Assembly: GCA_035310145.1 (NCBI GenBank)
Contig: DATGEL010000123.1
Span: 1-40,866 of the forward strand
DNA length: 40,866 bases
Source: Dehalococcoidia bacterium
GTDB lineage: Bacteria > Chloroflexota > Dehalococcoidia > CAUJGQ01
Direction: 5' to 3'
The notes beneath the pieces were generated by a model. It searched no databases and had not been told where the DNA came from. It saw only the letters and a list, made by a program, of their open reading frames with translations. This document shows, piece by piece, positions 13,204-26,600 of the stretch. Position 1 is the stretch's first letter. Every line of letters begins with the position of its first letter. The translations under genes and the position numbers were made by a program.

Positions 13204-13243
13204 GATAACGCTCATTGGTAACGCTCATTGATAACGCTCATTG
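13204..13243. repeat. Three tandem copies of a 13-14-bp unit before a methyltransferase start
   Basis: GATAACGCTCATTG (13204-13217), GTAACGCTCATTG (13218-13230) and ATAACGCTCATTG (13231-13243) follow each other without gaps. They end where the GAGG ribosome-binding site begins, nine bases before ATG 13252. The unit is 13 bp apart from one extra base in the first copy. It may change expression if copy number varies, or it may be a regulator site. Confidence 0.8.
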
Positions 13244-13251
13244 AGGAACGT

Positions 13252-14091
13252 ATGCCGCGCGGCTGGCAGTGGGATCCAACGCTGTTTCGAGGCAGCGCCC
13301 GCTACTACGTGCAGGGGCGGCTGCCCTATCCTGCTGCCCTCGCCCCGGTACTGGCGGCGGCGCTGCAGCTCGACGGCCGTGGTCGGCTGCTCGATGTCGG
13401 CTGCGGCCCGGGGATCATCGCCCTGCGGCTGGCGCACCTGTTCGAGCAGGCCGTCGGCCTCGACCCCGACGCGGAGATGCTGGCCGAGGCGCGGCGCGGC
13501 GCCGCCGAGCAGCAGATCGGCAATGCGCGCTGGCTGCAGGCGCTGGCCGAGCATCTGCCGCTGCGTCCCGGCAGCGTACGCGTGGCGACGTTCGCCGCCT
13601 CGTTTCACTGGATGGAGCGCGACCGCGTGGCTGCCGCCGTGCTGAGGCTGCTGGAGCCGGGCGGGGCGTTCGTGCAAGTGAGTGCGCCGCAGGACGGCGC
13701 GGCAAGCACTGGCCTCTTGCCCCACCCCGCGCCGCCGCGTGCGCAGATCGATGCGCTGCTGCGACGCTACCTCGGCCCGGAGCGGAGGGCGGGGCAAGGC
13801 GTGCTGCGCTACGGCACGCCTGGCGACGAGCTGGCCGTGCTGCGCCGCGCCGGCTTCCCGGAGCCGCAGATCGTGACGATTCCCGGCGGCGAGTTGATCG
13901 TGCGCTCGATCGATGACCTCGTTGCCGCCCAACTCTCCCAGTCGAGCTCGGCGCCCCACCTCTTCGGCGCCCAGGCCGGCGCTTTCGAGGCAGAGCTGCG
14001 CCGGCTGCTGGATGCCAGCTCGCCCTCCGGCCTCTTCGCGCAGCAGATGGGAGACACCGAGCTGCGCATCTGGCGGACGCCGGCGCGCTGA
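13252..14091 (+). CDS. Class I SAM-dependent methyltransferase
   Basis: The 279-residue protein shows the Rossmann SAM-binding set: LLDVGCGPGIIALRLAHLF (motif I), VGLDPDAEMLAEARR (acidic end of strand 2), LPLRPGSVRVATFAASFHWM (motif II-like) and LLEPGGAFVQVS (motif III). This is typical of the Methyltransf_11 small-molecule enzymes. The C-terminal half would form the substrate lid, and the substrate is unknown. ATG 13252 with GAGGAACGT upstream was chosen over an in-frame TTG at 13228 that lies inside the tandem repeat. The gene stands alone between the frameshifted CMD gene and a zinc-ribbon gene. Confidence 0.88.
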   Translation: MPRGWQWDPTLFRGSARYYVQGRLPYPAALAPVLAAALQLDGRGRLLDVGCGPGIIALRLAHLFEQAVGLDPDAEMLAEARRGAAEQQIGNARWLQALAEHLPLRPGSVRVATFAASFHWMERDRVAAAVLRLLEPGGAFVQVSAPQDGAASTGLLPHPAPPRAQIDALLRRYLGPERRAGQGVLRYGTPGDELAVLRRAGFPEPQIVTIPGGELIVRSIDDLVAAQLSQSSSAPHLFGAQAGAFEAELRRLLDASSPSGLFAQQMGDTELRIWRTPAR

Positions 14092-20958: not shown

Positions 20959-21822
20959 TTAGCCGAAGCGCCCGGTGATGTAGTCCTCGGTGCGCTTGTC
21001 GGAGGGCGCGGTGAACATCGTCGCCGTGTCGCTGCACTCGACGAGGAAGCCGGCGCGCTGCTCGTTCGCCATGAAAAACGCCGTGCGATGCGCGACGCGC
21101 GCCGCCTGCTGCATGTTATGCGTGACGATCACGATCGTGTAGCGGCGCGAGAGGTCCTGCATCAGTTCCTCGATCTTGAGCGTGGCGATCGGGTCCAGCG
21201 CCGAGGCGGGCTCGTCCATCAGCAGCACGTCCGGCTCCATCGCCAGGGCGCGGGCGATGCACAGCCGCTGCTGCTGGCCGCCGGAGAGGTCGTAGGCGGA
21301 CTGGTCAAGCTTGTCCTTCACCTCGTCCCACAGGGCGGCGCTGCGCAGGCTGCGTTCCACCAGCTCGGCCAGGGCTTTGCCCCTGGCACGGCGGTGCAGC
21401 TTCGGCCCGAAGGCGACGTTCTCGAAGATCGAGCGGGGAAAGGGATTGGGCCGCTGGAAGACCATGCCCACCCGCGCCCGAACCAACGCCGGATCCACGT
21501 TCGCGGCGTAGATGTCTTCGTCGTTGAGCAGGATCTGGCCCTCGATGCGGGCGCCGGGAGTGAGATCGTGCATGCGGTTGAAGGCGCGCAGAAACGTGGA
21601 TTTGCCGCAGCCGGAGGGACCGATGATCGCCAGGATCTGGCGCTCCGGGATTTCGAGCGTGATATCCGCAAGCGCCTTGAAGGCGCCGTAGTAGAAGTTC
21701 AGGTGTTCCGCGCGCATCTTGGCCGGCGCCTGCCGCTCGCGCTCGGCCCCGACCGCCACGGCGGGCGCGGTCACACGGGCGAGAAGGCCCGGAGGCGCCG
21801 GTAGGACGGTGGATTCGATCAT
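20959..21822 (-). CDS. pstB: Phosphate ABC transporter ATP-binding protein
   Basis: The 287-residue ATPase of the high-affinity phosphate importer has Walker [21 protein letters not shown], the PstB-specific [20 protein letters not shown], the signature [16 protein letters not shown], Walker [16 protein letters not shown] and the H-loop [15 protein letters not shown] roughly 35-residue N-terminal extension precedes the usual start ([16 protein letters not shown]). ATG 21822 has GGGAGAGAACG upstream, so the extension is probably real, but an inner start at that Met is possible. It is the last gene of pstSCAB, and no phoU follows. Confidence 0.95.
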
Positions 21823-21869
21823 GGCTTCGTTCTCTCCCGGAATGGCTGGACGATGGCTCACGCGTGGGC

Positions 21870-22757
21870 TCACTCGCGTTGCAACCGGTTGCGGCTTGCG
21901 TAATAGCGGGCGCCGATGCTGAGCACCAGCACGGATAGGATGAGCACCAGTGCCGCCGCCTGCGCCAGCTTGTGCCAGGCGTCGTACGGTCCGATCGCGT
22001 ACTTGAACAGGCGCAGCGGCACCGCGTCGATCGGCTTCGCGAGCGATCGCTGCCAGAACTCGTTGCCGAAAGCAGTGAACAGCAGCGGCGCCGTCTCGCC
22101 GGCGATGCGGGCCACCGCGAGCAGCGTGCCGGTGATAATGCCGCTGGCGGCGGCGGGCAGCACCACGCTCAGCACGACGCGCCAGCGCGGCACGCCGAGC
22201 GCCATGCCCGCCTCGCGCAGCGTACCGGGCACCTGCCTCAGCATCTCCTCGGTCGTGCGCACCACCAGCGGCAGCATCACGATCGCCAGCGCCACGGCGC
22301 CCGCCAGCGCCGAAAAGCTGTGCATCGGCACGACTAGAAGCACATACACAAACAGGCCAATCGCGATCGAGGGAATGCCGCTGAGCACGTCGGCGAAGAA
22401 GCGGACGAGCAGCGCGAGCTTGCCATGGCCGTACTCGGCCAGATAGATGCCGCCGGCGATGCCCAGCGCCGTGCCGAGCAGAGCCGCGAGGCCGACGATC
22501 ACCAGCGAGCCGACCAGCGAGTTCGCCATGCCGCCCGCGCCCACGTCCACCGGCCGCGGCAGCTTCGTAAGCAAGCTGACGGAAAGCCCGGGCAGGCCGT
22601 TGACCGCGACGTAGGCGAGCACCGCGATCAGCGGCGCCAGGCTGACGACGAGCGCCAGCACGATCAGGCCGAGCATCACCAGGTTGGTCAGCCTGCGGCG
22701 CTCGATCCTGCGGGAGACGAGGGAAGGGCGCGCGCGCGGGGCGCTGGCGATGCTCAT
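21870..22757 (-). CDS. pstA: Phosphate ABC transporter permease PstA
   Basis: The 295-residue membrane protein has about six hydrophobic helices, beginning near [20 protein letters not shown]. The permease EAA loop is at [20 protein letters not shown], which contacts Pst[21 protein letters not shown] and [18 protein letters not shown] are typical of PstA. The ATG at 22757 overlaps the stop of pstC (ATGA), giving translational coupling and equal amounts of the two permease subunits. The start is fixed by that overlap. Confidence 0.95.
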
Positions 22758-23719
22758 GCCGTCATCGCCCCCGGCGCGCCGCGAGTGATCCGCCAGACCA
22801 GCAGGCGAGCGCAGATGTTCAAGATCATGGTGATCGCCAGCAGGATCAGGCCCAGCTCGAACAGCGACGCCAGATACAGCGGATAGGTCGCCTCGGTGAA
22901 CTCGTTGGCGATCACGGCGGCGATCGTGTAGCCGAGCGAGAAGAGCGAATGGGTGATCTGCGCCCGGCCGCCGATCACCATGGTTACGGCGATCGTCTCG
23001 CCCAGCGCCCGGCCGAGGCCGAGGATCGCGGCGCCGAAGATGCCGCTGCGCGCGTAGGGCAGCACAACGCCCCGGATCACCTCCCAGCGCGTGGCGCCGA
23101 GCGCGTAGGCGGCTTCGCGTTGCTCGAGCGGCACGGCCCGCAGCACATCGCGTGAGATCGCGGCGACGGTGGGCAGGATCATGATGCCGAGAATCACGCC
23201 GCCTGCGAGCAGGCCGATCCCGATCTGCGGGCCGCTGAACAGGGGAATGAAGCCGAGCGTGTCATGCAGGAACGGTTCGACCGTCGTGCGCAGGAGGGGC
23301 GCCAGGACGAAGATGCCCCACAGGCCGTAGACCACGCTGGGAATCGCCGCCAGCAACTCGACCAGCGTGGCCAGCGGCACGCGCAGCCGCCGAGGCGCAA
23401 GCTCCGTGAGGAACAGCGCGGTGCCAACGCCGATGAACAGAGCCAGCGCGATCGCGATCAGCGAGGTGATGATCGTGCCGAAGATGTAGGGCAGCGCGCC
23501 GAAGCGCTGATGCACCGGATCCCAGTGTTGCGAGGTGAGGAAGCCGAGGCCGAACCTGCCGATCGCCTGGCGCGACTCCCAGGCCAGGTCGACGCCGAGC
23601 CCCACCACGATCAGCAGCACCAGCAGGGCTGATGCCGTGACCGCCGCGCGGAAGATCCGCTCGCCGCGGCCTCCGCGGGCGCGAGTCAGCTTCCCCGAAG
23701 TTCCGATTGACCGAGCCAC
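22754..23719 (-). CDS. pstC: Phosphate ABC transporter permease PstC
   Basis: The 321-residue permease has six hydrophobic segments, the [20 protein letters not shown] block characteristic of Pst[21 protein letters not shown], and the EAA loop at [20 protein letters not shown]. Further on it has [15 protein letters not shown]. It forms the phosphate channel with PstA. The start is a GTG at 23719, 34 bases after the pstS stop. The ribosome-binding site is purine-poor (GGGAGGGCGC upstream). Confidence 0.95.
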
Positions 23720-23753: not shown

Positions 23754-24953
23754 CTACTGCGCCAGCACGGGCTTGCCGTCGGCCGTGATCTTCTTTAGCT
23801 GCGCCTCGTCCAGCTTCTGCAACTGTTCGGGCAGCGGCGCGTACGAAAGATCCTGCGCGTACTTCTGCCCGTCGTGCGTGACCCACCAGAGCAGCGAGAC
23901 GAGGGACTGTGCGACCTTCGCATCGCTCTGGCCGGTGTTGATCGCTACCCAGCTGAAGCCGGAGATGGGGTAGCTGGCGTCACCGGGCGCGTTGACGAAG
24001 GTGGCACGCAGGTCGGGCGGCAGGTTGGCGATCGCACCGGCCGCGGCGGCGCTGGCGCCGTCCGACGTCGGGTCCACGAACTTGCCGGCCTGGTTCTGCA
24101 AGGTGGCGACGGTAATGGTGTTCTGCACCGCGTAGGCTAGCTCGAAGTAGCCGATGCCGCCGGGGGTCTGCTTGACGAGGCCGGCGACGCCCTCGCTGCC
24201 CTTGCCGCCGGAGCCCGTCGGCCATTCCACCGAAGTCGCGGCGCCGACCTTCGACTTCCAGTCTGGGCTGACCGCCGAGAGGTAGCTGGTGAAGATGAAG
24301 GAGGTGCCGCTGCCGTCCGAGCGATGCACCACGGCGATATCAAGGTCGGGCAGGTTGGCGCCGGGGTTGATCACCTTGATCGCCGGGTCGTTCCACTTCT
24401 TGATCTGGCCCATGAAGATCTTCGCCAGCGTATCGCCGGTCAGCTTCATCCCCGACTTCACGCCGGGCAGGTTGTAGCCGACGGGCACGGCGCCGATGGT
24501 GACGGGGATGTGCACGACGTCGCCGCCGGCCGCCTTGATCTGCTCGTCGGTGAGCGGGGCGTCGGTGGCGCCGAACTGCACCGTCTTCTGCGTGAGTTGC
24601 TGGATGCCGCCGCCGCTGCCGATCGACTGGTAGTTGACCTGGACCTTGCACTGCTGGTTGTAGACATCGAACAGCTTGCTGAACAGCGGGTTGTCGAACG
24701 TCGAGCCGGCGCCGATCAGCGCGTTCGCCGCGCCGCTTGGCGGGCACATCGGCACGCTGCTCGCCGCGGGCGATGCCGGCGCCTTCGTGGCGGCCGACGT
24801 GGCGCTGACGGCTGCGACCTGGGTCGCGGCCCGAGCGGCGGTACCGACGGTCTTGTTCTGATTCGAATTGTTTTTGTTGCTGCTGCATGCCAGCGCCAGC
24901 GTTGCCGCGAGCGCCAGCGAGACGAGGATGCCGATCTGACGGCCGGGTCTCAT
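23754..24953 (-). CDS. pstS: Phosphate-binding lipoprotein PstS
   Basis: The 399-residue extracytoplasmic phosphate receptor begins MRPGRQIGILVSLALAATLA, then a lipobox LALACSSNK (lipidated Cys near 23) and an Asn/Ala-rich linker. The binding domain has LIGAGSTFDNPLFSKLFDVY, YQSIGSGGGIQQLTQKTVQF, GATDAPLTDEQ, and VVHRSDGSGTSFIFTSYL, the conserved phosphate ligands. AGGAGG lies seven bases before ATG 24953, a strong site that fits the high level of PstS needed under phosphate starvation. It is the first gene of the pst operon, with PHO-box-like repeats upstream. Confidence 0.95.
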   Translation of the reverse strand: MRPGRQIGILVSLALAATLALACSSNKNNSNQNKTVGTAARAATQVAAVSATSAATKAPASPAASSVPMCPPSGAANALIGAGSTFDNPLFSKLFDVYNQQCKVQVNYQSIGSGGGIQQLTQKTVQFGATDAPLTDEQIKAAGGDVVHIPVTIGAVPVGYNLPGVKSGMKLTGDTLAKIFMGQIKKWNDPAIKVINPGANLPDLDIAVVHRSDGSGTSFIFTSYLSAVSPDWKSKVGAATSVEWPTGSGGKGSEGVAGLVKQTPGGIGYFELAYAVQNTITVATLQNQAGKFVDPTSDGASAAAAGAIANLPPDLRATFVNAPGDASYPISGFSWVAINTGQSDAKVAQSLVSLLWWVTHDGQKYAQDLSYAPLPEQLQKLDEAQLKKITADGKPVLAQ

Positions 24954-25008
24954 CGCGCCTCCTGCGGGCGTGTTCGGCGGGCCAGGAGAGCCCCGCCATT
25001 CACCCCGG

Positions 25009-25053
25009 AGGCTAGCGACTGCACGTTATCCGGACGTTATCGGGACGTTTGCC
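25009..25053 (-). promoter_or_regulatory. PHO-box-like direct repeats and -10 of the pst operon
   Basis: Three direct repeats with an exact 11-base period occur on the plus strand: ACGTTATCC (25023-25031), ACGTTATCG (25034-25042) and ACGTTTGCC (25045-25053). PhoB/PhoP boxes in other bacteria have the same 11-base spacing, one DNA turn per bound monomer. Reading leftwards, TAGCCT (25014-25009) lies 8 bases beyond the last repeat and can serve as the -10 element. The pstS start is about 56 bases downstream of it. The base sequence of the units differs from the E. coli and Streptomyces consensus. Confidence 0.7.
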
Positions 25054-25113
25054 GCTGGTGCGCCGGCGCTGTGCCGACCGACACCGGAGGTTCACTTTCG
25101 CTCCGTCAGTCGG

Positions 25114-25383
25114 TCATCGCTCGCGCAGGAAGCGGTCGACGGCGTCGGCCGTGGCCTGGGCGATCTCGCGCTGCTCGATCAGGCCTTCGAGGCGGGTGCG
25201 CAGGCCGGAGAGCTCGTTCTGCCGGCGCGTGCGGGCGCGGCCACGCAGGCGATAGATGTCGGCCACGGTGGCGCCGTGCGCGGCCAGCACGCGGCCGATC
25301 GCGGCGGCCTGCGCCTCCGCACCCTGGCCCTCCGTCTCAAGCAGCGCCGCCTGCAGGTCGCGCAGCAGCGCGCGGTCATCCAC
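25114..25383 (-). CDS. Small helical protein of unknown function
   Basis: The 89-residue product starts with GTG at 25383 and reads MDDRALLRDLQAALLETEGQ, later VADIYRLRGRARTRRQNELS and LEGLIEQREIAQATADAVDR. It is charged and mostly helical, probably with a short coiled coil, and has no known domain. Ribosome-binding sequence GGAGC lies about ten bases upstream. It sits between the AI-2E permease gene and the pst promoter on the minus strand; its stop is about 60 bases before the PHO-like repeats. Confidence 0.6.
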   Translation of the reverse strand: MDDRALLRDLQAALLETEGQGAEAQAAAIGRVLAAHGATVADIYRLRGRARTRRQNELSGLRTRLEGLIEQREIAQATADAVDRFLRER

Positions 25384-25448
25384 GCTCGATCGTGCTCCGT
25401 GTCCACCACGTTGGCGTGGTTACCCCTGAAGCCAGTCTACCGGCCGGC

Positions 25449-26600
25449 TCAGCGTCGCCGGCCGGCGGCAGAGCGGGGCGCCACCGGCGGCGGGTGCTCC
25501 GGCTCGCGCTTGTCCGAGGGCAATTCGGCGCCATGACCGTCCACCGCGGCGGGCGCCACGGAAGGCGGCTCGAAGACGTAGAACTCGTCGAGCAGCGCCT
25601 GGACGACGATGGCAATCGGCACGGCCAGCAGGGCGCCGAGAATGCCCAGCGCCTCGCCTCCCAGGAAGAGCGCCACCACGACCACCAGCGGATGGATGCC
25701 CAGCACACGGTCCATCAGCTTCGGCGCGATCACGTGGCCTTCGATCTCCACCACCACGGCGTACCAGGCGACCACCCAGATCACCAGCAGCGGATTCTGC
25801 GTCAACGCGACGAGCACCGCCAGCGCCACCGTAAGGAAACCGCCGACGTAAGGAATGACCTCAAGCACACCGCCGATCACGCCAAGCGTCACCGCGTAGT
25901 GCACGTTGAAGATGCGCAGCCCCGCGCCGAACGCCACGCCGAAAAACAGCGCCAGCAGGAGTTGTGCCCGTGCCCACTGCCCCATGCGCGTGCCGATGCG
26001 GCCCATCACCCGCGCCACGCGCGGCCGCTGGTCCGGCGGCACGAAGCGGCGGATCGCCAGCGCGACAAAGTCTTCTTCCACCGCGAGGAAGAAGGCGATC
26101 ACCAGCACCAGGATCACGGTGATGCTGAAGGAGACGAGGTCGAAGATCAGGCTCGTCAGCGTACTGGCAACGGTGCCCAGCTCGCCCGAGAGGCGGTCGG
26201 TAATCGTCTTGGTGGAGAAGTTCTGCGCCTGATCCGGGGCGATGCGGGCGACGAAGCGCTGCGCGTCGTCGGCGTAGCCCGGTAACGATTGGCGCAGCGC
26301 ATCGATCTCGTCCACGACCAGCGGCACGATCAAGGCGATGACACCGGCGAGCACCGCCAGCACCAGCAGGTAGATCACAAGGATCGTGACGCCGCGCGGC
26401 ACACCGCGGCGGGCCATAAAGCGCGCCGCCGGGGCGACGGCCGCGGCCAGCAGAACCGCGGTGAAGAGCACGGTGAAGACGTGCTTGAGGGAAAGCGGCA
26501 GGAAGTGCAGCACGACCAGCAGCAGCACGAGCGCGCCCAGCGGCCATACCGCCCGCTGCGAAAACCCGACCAAACCGCGCTCGTGCCGTGGAATCTGCAT
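25449..26600 (-). CDS. AI-2E family transporter (PerM type)
   Basis: The 383-residue membrane protein has about eight hydrophobic segments arranged as in the PF01594 family. An N-terminal pair (AVWPLGALVLLLVVLHFLPL) and GVTILVIYLLVLAVLAGVIA come first, then a soluble region (LPGYADDAQRFVARIAPDQ), and a C-terminal cluster with GGVLEVIPYVGGFLTVALAV and HPLVVVVALFLGGEALGILG. Members export autoinducer-2 or act as sodium/proton antiporters; most have no proven substrate. ATG 26600 begins just before the first membrane helix. The C-terminus is a proline/arginine-rich cytoplasmic tail. It stands alone on the minus strand. Confidence 0.85.
   Translation of the reverse strand: MQIPRHERGLVGFSQRAVWPLGALVLLLVVLHFLPLSLKHVFTVLFTAVLLAAAVAPAARFMARRGVPRGVTILVIYLLVLAVLAGVIALIVPLVVDEIDALRQSLPGYADDAQRFVARIAPDQAQNFSTKTITDRLSGELGTVASTLTSLIFDLVSFSITVILVLVIAFFLAVEEDFVALAIRRFVPPDQRPRVARVMGRIGTRMGQWARAQLLLALFFGVAFGAGLRIFNVHYAVTLGVIGGVLEVIPYVGGFLTVALAVLVALTQNPLLVIWVVAWYAVVVEIEGHVIAPKLMDRVLGIHPLVVVVALFLGGEALGILGALLAVPIAIVVQALLDEFYVFEPPSVAPAAVDGHGAELPSDKREPEHPPPVAPRSAAGRRR

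Follow-up and report, generated by a model that had tools for sequence, protein, structure and literature searches.

Upstream of the phosphate transporter operon pstSCAB of a Dehalococcoidia bacterium lies a short array of repeats, and the question that it raises is whether this array is the operator through which the operon responds to phosphate and, more generally, what a Pho box looks like in this lineage. A Pho box is built from at least two direct repeats of 11 nt, and its spelling differs between species (PMC4415409). In E. coli the PhoB box is placed 10 bp upstream of a TAN3T/A element, and in cyanobacteria the SphR box CTTAACCT recurs with 3-bp linkers, resulting in an 11-bp period (PMC1906773). 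Regulators of the OmpR family bind repeats of this sort as oligomers arranged in tandem, with the spacing strictly kept (PMC4832192). The stretch of DNA analyzed here, referred to as the window, is 40,866 nucleotides long.

An 11-bp repeat array upstream of pstSCAB

The pstSCAB operon is complete on the minus strand directly downstream of the array, with all four genes passing the cut-offs of their equivalog models. Given this orientation, the array has to be read on the coding strand. The repeat units, the -10-like hexamer and the Shine-Dalgarno element listed below were read from the sequence.

25045..25053, minus strand: distal repeat unit 1, coding strand GGCAAACGT, with a degenerate core AAAC at 25047-25050
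25034..25042, minus strand: repeat unit 2, coding strand CGATAACGT, TAAC core at 25036-25039
25023..25031, minus strand: proximal repeat unit 3, coding strand GGATAACGT, TAAC core at 25025-25028
25015..25024, minus strand: 10-bp spacer from the last TAAC to the -10 element, identical in length in relatives, its first two bases within the unit 3 9-mer
25009..25014, minus strand: -10-like hexamer TAGCCT (TANNNT)
24958..24963, minus strand: Shine-Dalgarno AGGAGG ahead of the pstS ATG
23754..24953, minus strand: pstS, phosphate ABC transporter substrate-binding protein (TIGR00975, above cut-off)
22754..23719, minus strand: pstC (TIGR02138, above cut-off)
21870..22757, minus strand: pstA (TIGR00974, above cut-off)
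20959..21873, minus strand: pstB, the last gene of the pst operon (TIGR00972, above cut-off)

An earlier note on this DNA had described three 9-mers at exactly 11-base spacing, and they are indeed present at 25023-25053: on the forward strand they read ACGTTATCC (25023-25031), ACGTTATCG (25034-25042) and ACGTTTGCC (25045-25053). On the coding strand the order is GGCAAACGTCC-CGATAACGTCC-GGATAACGTGC, then AGTCGC, then TAGCCT, the last being the -10-like hexamer that the same note had placed 8 bases past the array and that we find on the minus strand at 25009-25014. From TAGCCT to the pstS ATG the distance is 55 bp. A consensus -35 element is absent, and a promoter scan of positions 24940-25450 returned no consensus sigma-70 -35/-10 promoter. 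Upstream of the array, a small ORF (25114-25383) is without a family match, and no phoU is found at the pst locus or after pstB.

The array is a direct repeat with a TAAC core in which two units are nearly identical and one is degenerate. The unit cores in the window are CAAAC, ATAAC and ATAAC; TAAC is present in two of the three units, and relatives from the class mostly have TTAAC. Units 2 and 3 match the pattern of two units plus a -10 perfectly, and Tandem Repeats Finder independently reports the array (25023-25049, period 11). Allowing up to three mismatches, the expected count of ACGTTATC-N3-ACGTTATC per window is 0.04 and the observed count is two, from overlapping units; without mismatches it has a single occurrence in the 5.32-Mb genome. 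Near-matches elsewhere in the genome to the 19-mer of the earlier note, at three mismatches, do not resemble Pho promoters. On self-similarity alone the array is just one of the few highest-scoring places in the window and not exceptional, and its significance therefore comes from comparative evidence.

The window also contains a 13-bp tandem repeat, GATAACGCTCATT, in 3.2 copies (13204-13244), just upstream of a methyltransferase-like ORF that starts near 13252. This repeat has GATAACG in common with the array, but its period is 13 bp.

A layout shared by pst promoters across several families of the class

In 52 of the 393 genomes of the class pstS was found, and metagenome-assembled genomes of Chloroflexota are among the nearest named pstS relatives. 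The sole other genome available for comparison at the level of the family or order gave no match to pstS. Across pstS upstream regions from all sources, a period of 11 is enriched, with 13 of 108 regions reaching the score cut-off vs 0 to 5 for the other periods between 8 and 15. Aligned pst upstream regions of relatives display TTAAC, TTAAA, TTAAT or TTCAC units 11 bp apart, a clear array being visible in only about half of the class pst upstreams.

The distance between the repeats and the -10 element also has preferred values. In 51 upstream regions from the class and near relatives, a pair of units at 11 bp is followed by TANNNT at a spacer of 10 in 13 cases, at a spacer of 21, corresponding to one extra unit (10 + 11), in 10 cases and at a spacer of 7 in 5 cases, with 0 to 2 cases for each of the remaining spacers. 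At spacer 10, the template strand and the interiors of genes both give a count of 0, and a resampled null has a mean of 0.07 and a maximum of 1 in 500. According to their family labels, the 13 regions with spacer 10 span several families of the class.

We refined a 45-bp weight matrix on relatives alone, leaving the window out, from seeds picked with a pattern of the same layout (unit repeats plus -10). With this matrix the array scores 20.7 bits on the minus strand, and the runner-up among about 82,000 positions scores 5.0. None of 200 column-permuted matrices attains 20.7 bits, and 20 Mb of sequence simulated with the trinucleotide statistics of the window contains no score of 15 or above. 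A covariance model built for the promoter from sequence only gave zero matches, missing the window site itself, and is uninformative.

The earlier note had also stated that period and position correspond to promoters activated by PhoB or PhoP, and the 11-bp period, the exact 10-bp distance to the -10 and the matrix built from relatives all bear this out. It had named a lack of enrichment near other phosphate genes or at pst promoters of relatives as the outcome that would count against a Pho box; at the pst promoters of relatives the enrichment is strong by period, by -10 distance and by matrix. Its suggestion that the array could define the PHO box of the lineage is supported, the pst promoters of relatives sharing the layout; as for the spelling, TTAAC is the common unit in the lineage and GATAACG of the window one variant of it. 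In the closest relative from the class (L093) the units are GCTAACC, GATCACT and GATAACC.

The pstS upstream of another relative (G005, L094) carries CTGACA repeats at 11 bp, not TTAAC, some 40 bp ahead of where the gene begins. This suggests a different Pho-box spelling or a different regulator within the class.

The array resembles the cyanobacterial SphR box in having at least three direct repeats of 8-bp units and 3-bp linkers upstream of pst operons, and the SphR core is TTAAC; it differs in the unit itself (GATAACGT in the window vs CTTAACCT), in belonging to a high-GC Chloroflexota genome and in having a candidate regulator closer to RegX3. As in the E. coli PhoB box, 11-bp direct repeats ahead of pstS replace the -35, and a TANNNT -10 follows them at a distance of 10 bp, whereas the core is TAAC here and CTGTCAT in E. 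coli, and the TGTCA core is absent. The actinobacterial PhoP/RegX3 box (GTTCACC) is likewise built of 11-nt direct-repeat units, seven conserved positions plus four, and TTCAC units occur among the repeats of the class; the units in the window, however, are TAAC and not TCAC. In B. subtilis, the PhoP box consists of TTAACA repeats with a TTAAC core at a period of about 11 bp, and its flanks differ from those in the window. The earlier note held that the unit sequence differs from known PHO boxes. The exact spelling is the one tested respect in which the element does not fit them, and on the coding strand the unit is not far from them, being TAAC-cored like the cyanobacterial CTTAACCT (PMC1906773).

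A candidate regulator and similar sites in the genome

The only phoU found in the genome (C104:4948-5613) follows a gene for an OmpR-type response regulator (G000:C104:3890-4612). Among solved structures the best relative of this protein is actinobacterial RegX3 (2oqr, E 2e-67). With E. coli PhoB the protein shares 42 % identity and most of the recognition helix, its helix RTVDVHxRxLR carrying a Met in place of the second Arg of PhoB HIRRLR. With the PhoB model TIGR02154 it scores 213.7 bits, under the curated cut-off of 296.2, and the YycF and MtrA models match slightly better. We file it as a RegX3-like member of the OmpR/PhoB family. No cognate kinase was located. We consider this RegX3-like regulator beside phoU the best candidate for the protein that would bind the array.

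The search near phoU, phoA and phoD that the earlier note had proposed lends no support. A stretch of 16 kb surrounding the regulator gene and phoU contains no array above 6 bits, and the alkaline phosphatase (PF00245; phoA), PhoD and PhoX families have no match in the genome. With phoA, phoD and phoX not found, the classical Pho genes available for a test within the genome are limited to pst and phoU.

Genome-wide counts come from pattern searches; only selected loci were scored with the weight matrix. Three TAAC units at 11 bp with at most one mismatch have 7 matches in the genome vs 0 in the control, and TAA-N8-TAA-N11-TANNNT likewise has 7 vs 0. A loose pattern allowing up to one mismatch in the -10 is not specific, with 7 matches vs 5 in the control. 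Sites of the kind seen before pstS are rare in the genome. Two others exceed 20 bits, one on C22 (22.0 bits) and one on C73 (21.7 bits), compared with 20.7 bits for the pstS array; the other sites score 12-15 bits, a range in which simulation leads us to expect some chance matches.

The C22 site (G000:C22:42714-42766; L123; L159, about 1215-1267) has four TAAC/TAAT units at 11 bp and a -10 at spacer 10. It precedes two small ORFs and a gene cluster that encodes a pair of radical-SAM proteins together with a methyltransferase and a TrmO-like protein; the small ORFs and the radical-SAM cluster could be a peptide natural-product locus. The C73 site (G000:C73:34152-34182; L157) is a strong Pho-box-like promoter. 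The ORF that it precedes is short and zinc-ribbon-like, and 1.7 kb from the site, further downstream, lie genes for a multi-GAF histidine kinase and a CYTH-CHAD protein. A third locus (G000:C52:10064-10154; L125, L161) has two separate TAAC arrays, one of three units and then one of two units with a -10 at spacer 10. The site at C52:10064 is a perfect pattern match with a low matrix score and precedes a tyrosine-phosphatase-family (Y_phosphatase3) gene. None of the C22, C73 and C52 sites is located before a classical Pho gene.

The array as a probable operator and what it means for the lineage

The features that characterize Pho boxes occur together at this promoter: at least two 11-nt units, about 10 bp to a TANNNT element without a -35, a position before a phosphate-starvation gene and conservation in relatives. 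We conclude that the array is very probably a Pho box, serving a response regulator of the PhoB/RegX3 type and fused to a -35-less pstSCAB promoter, with both the binding and the phosphate response inferred. Upon phosphate limitation, an OmpR/PhoB-type response regulator would become phosphorylated and line up head to tail on the three direct repeats of 11 bp, with one subunit per helical turn and all subunits on the same face of the DNA. The bound regulator would substitute for the -35 element and bring RNA polymerase with sigma-70 to the -10 hexamer TAGCCT, exactly 10 bp past the last TAAC, and in this way would activate pstSCAB.

The same kind of operator might instead serve another OmpR-family regulator, responding for example to envelope or redox stress, that also controls pst. 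Binding to direct repeats is general among OmpR/PhoB-family regulators (PMC4832192), the YycF and MtrA models fit the candidate regulator slightly better than PhoB does, and strong sites elsewhere precede non-phosphate genes such as the radical-SAM cluster. However, it is specifically at pst promoters, whose common function is phosphate uptake, that several families of the class have kept the layout, and the candidate regulator adjoins phoU and is nearest to RegX3 among solved structures. We regard this alternative as unlikely.

Two further readings are far less probable still. One would take the array for a product of chance, or for a tandem repeat in decay, that plays no part in regulation, in keeping with the equal self-similarity found elsewhere in the window, where the GATAACGCTCATT tandem repeat is also present. 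Such a repeat would hardly be set apart by 15 bits by a matrix built from relatives, stand at exactly 10 bp from a TANNNT element and reach a score attained neither by any of the 200 permuted matrices nor by simulated sequence. The other would make the array a repressor operator overlapping the promoter, given that the sign of regulation is not readable from sequence and that Pho response regulators activate or repress (PMC4415409). The array, though, stops upstream of the -10, the missing consensus -35 calls for an activator, and the geometry equals that described for E. coli PhoB boxes, making repression highly improbable.

Beyond this operon, TTAAC-N6-TTAAC-N10-TANNNT may be the Pho regulon operator of the whole Chloroflexota class, recruited in this genome to non-classical genes that include the C22 radical-SAM cluster and the C52 tyrosine-phosphatase-like gene, a generalization that we offer tentatively and hold to be somewhat doubtful.

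The Pho box is a well-known type of site and the mechanism is an ordinary one; what is new is its spelling and layout for a poorly studied Chloroflexota lineage. The literature that we searched contains no description of a Chloroflexota Pho box, and an earlier in-silico description is possible, RegPrecise having a Chloroflexi collection. The geometry of 10 bp between Pho box and -10 known from E. coli is retained in a very distant phylum, and the spelling and geometry of the operator enable the prediction of Pho regulons in genomes that are known mostly from metagenomes.
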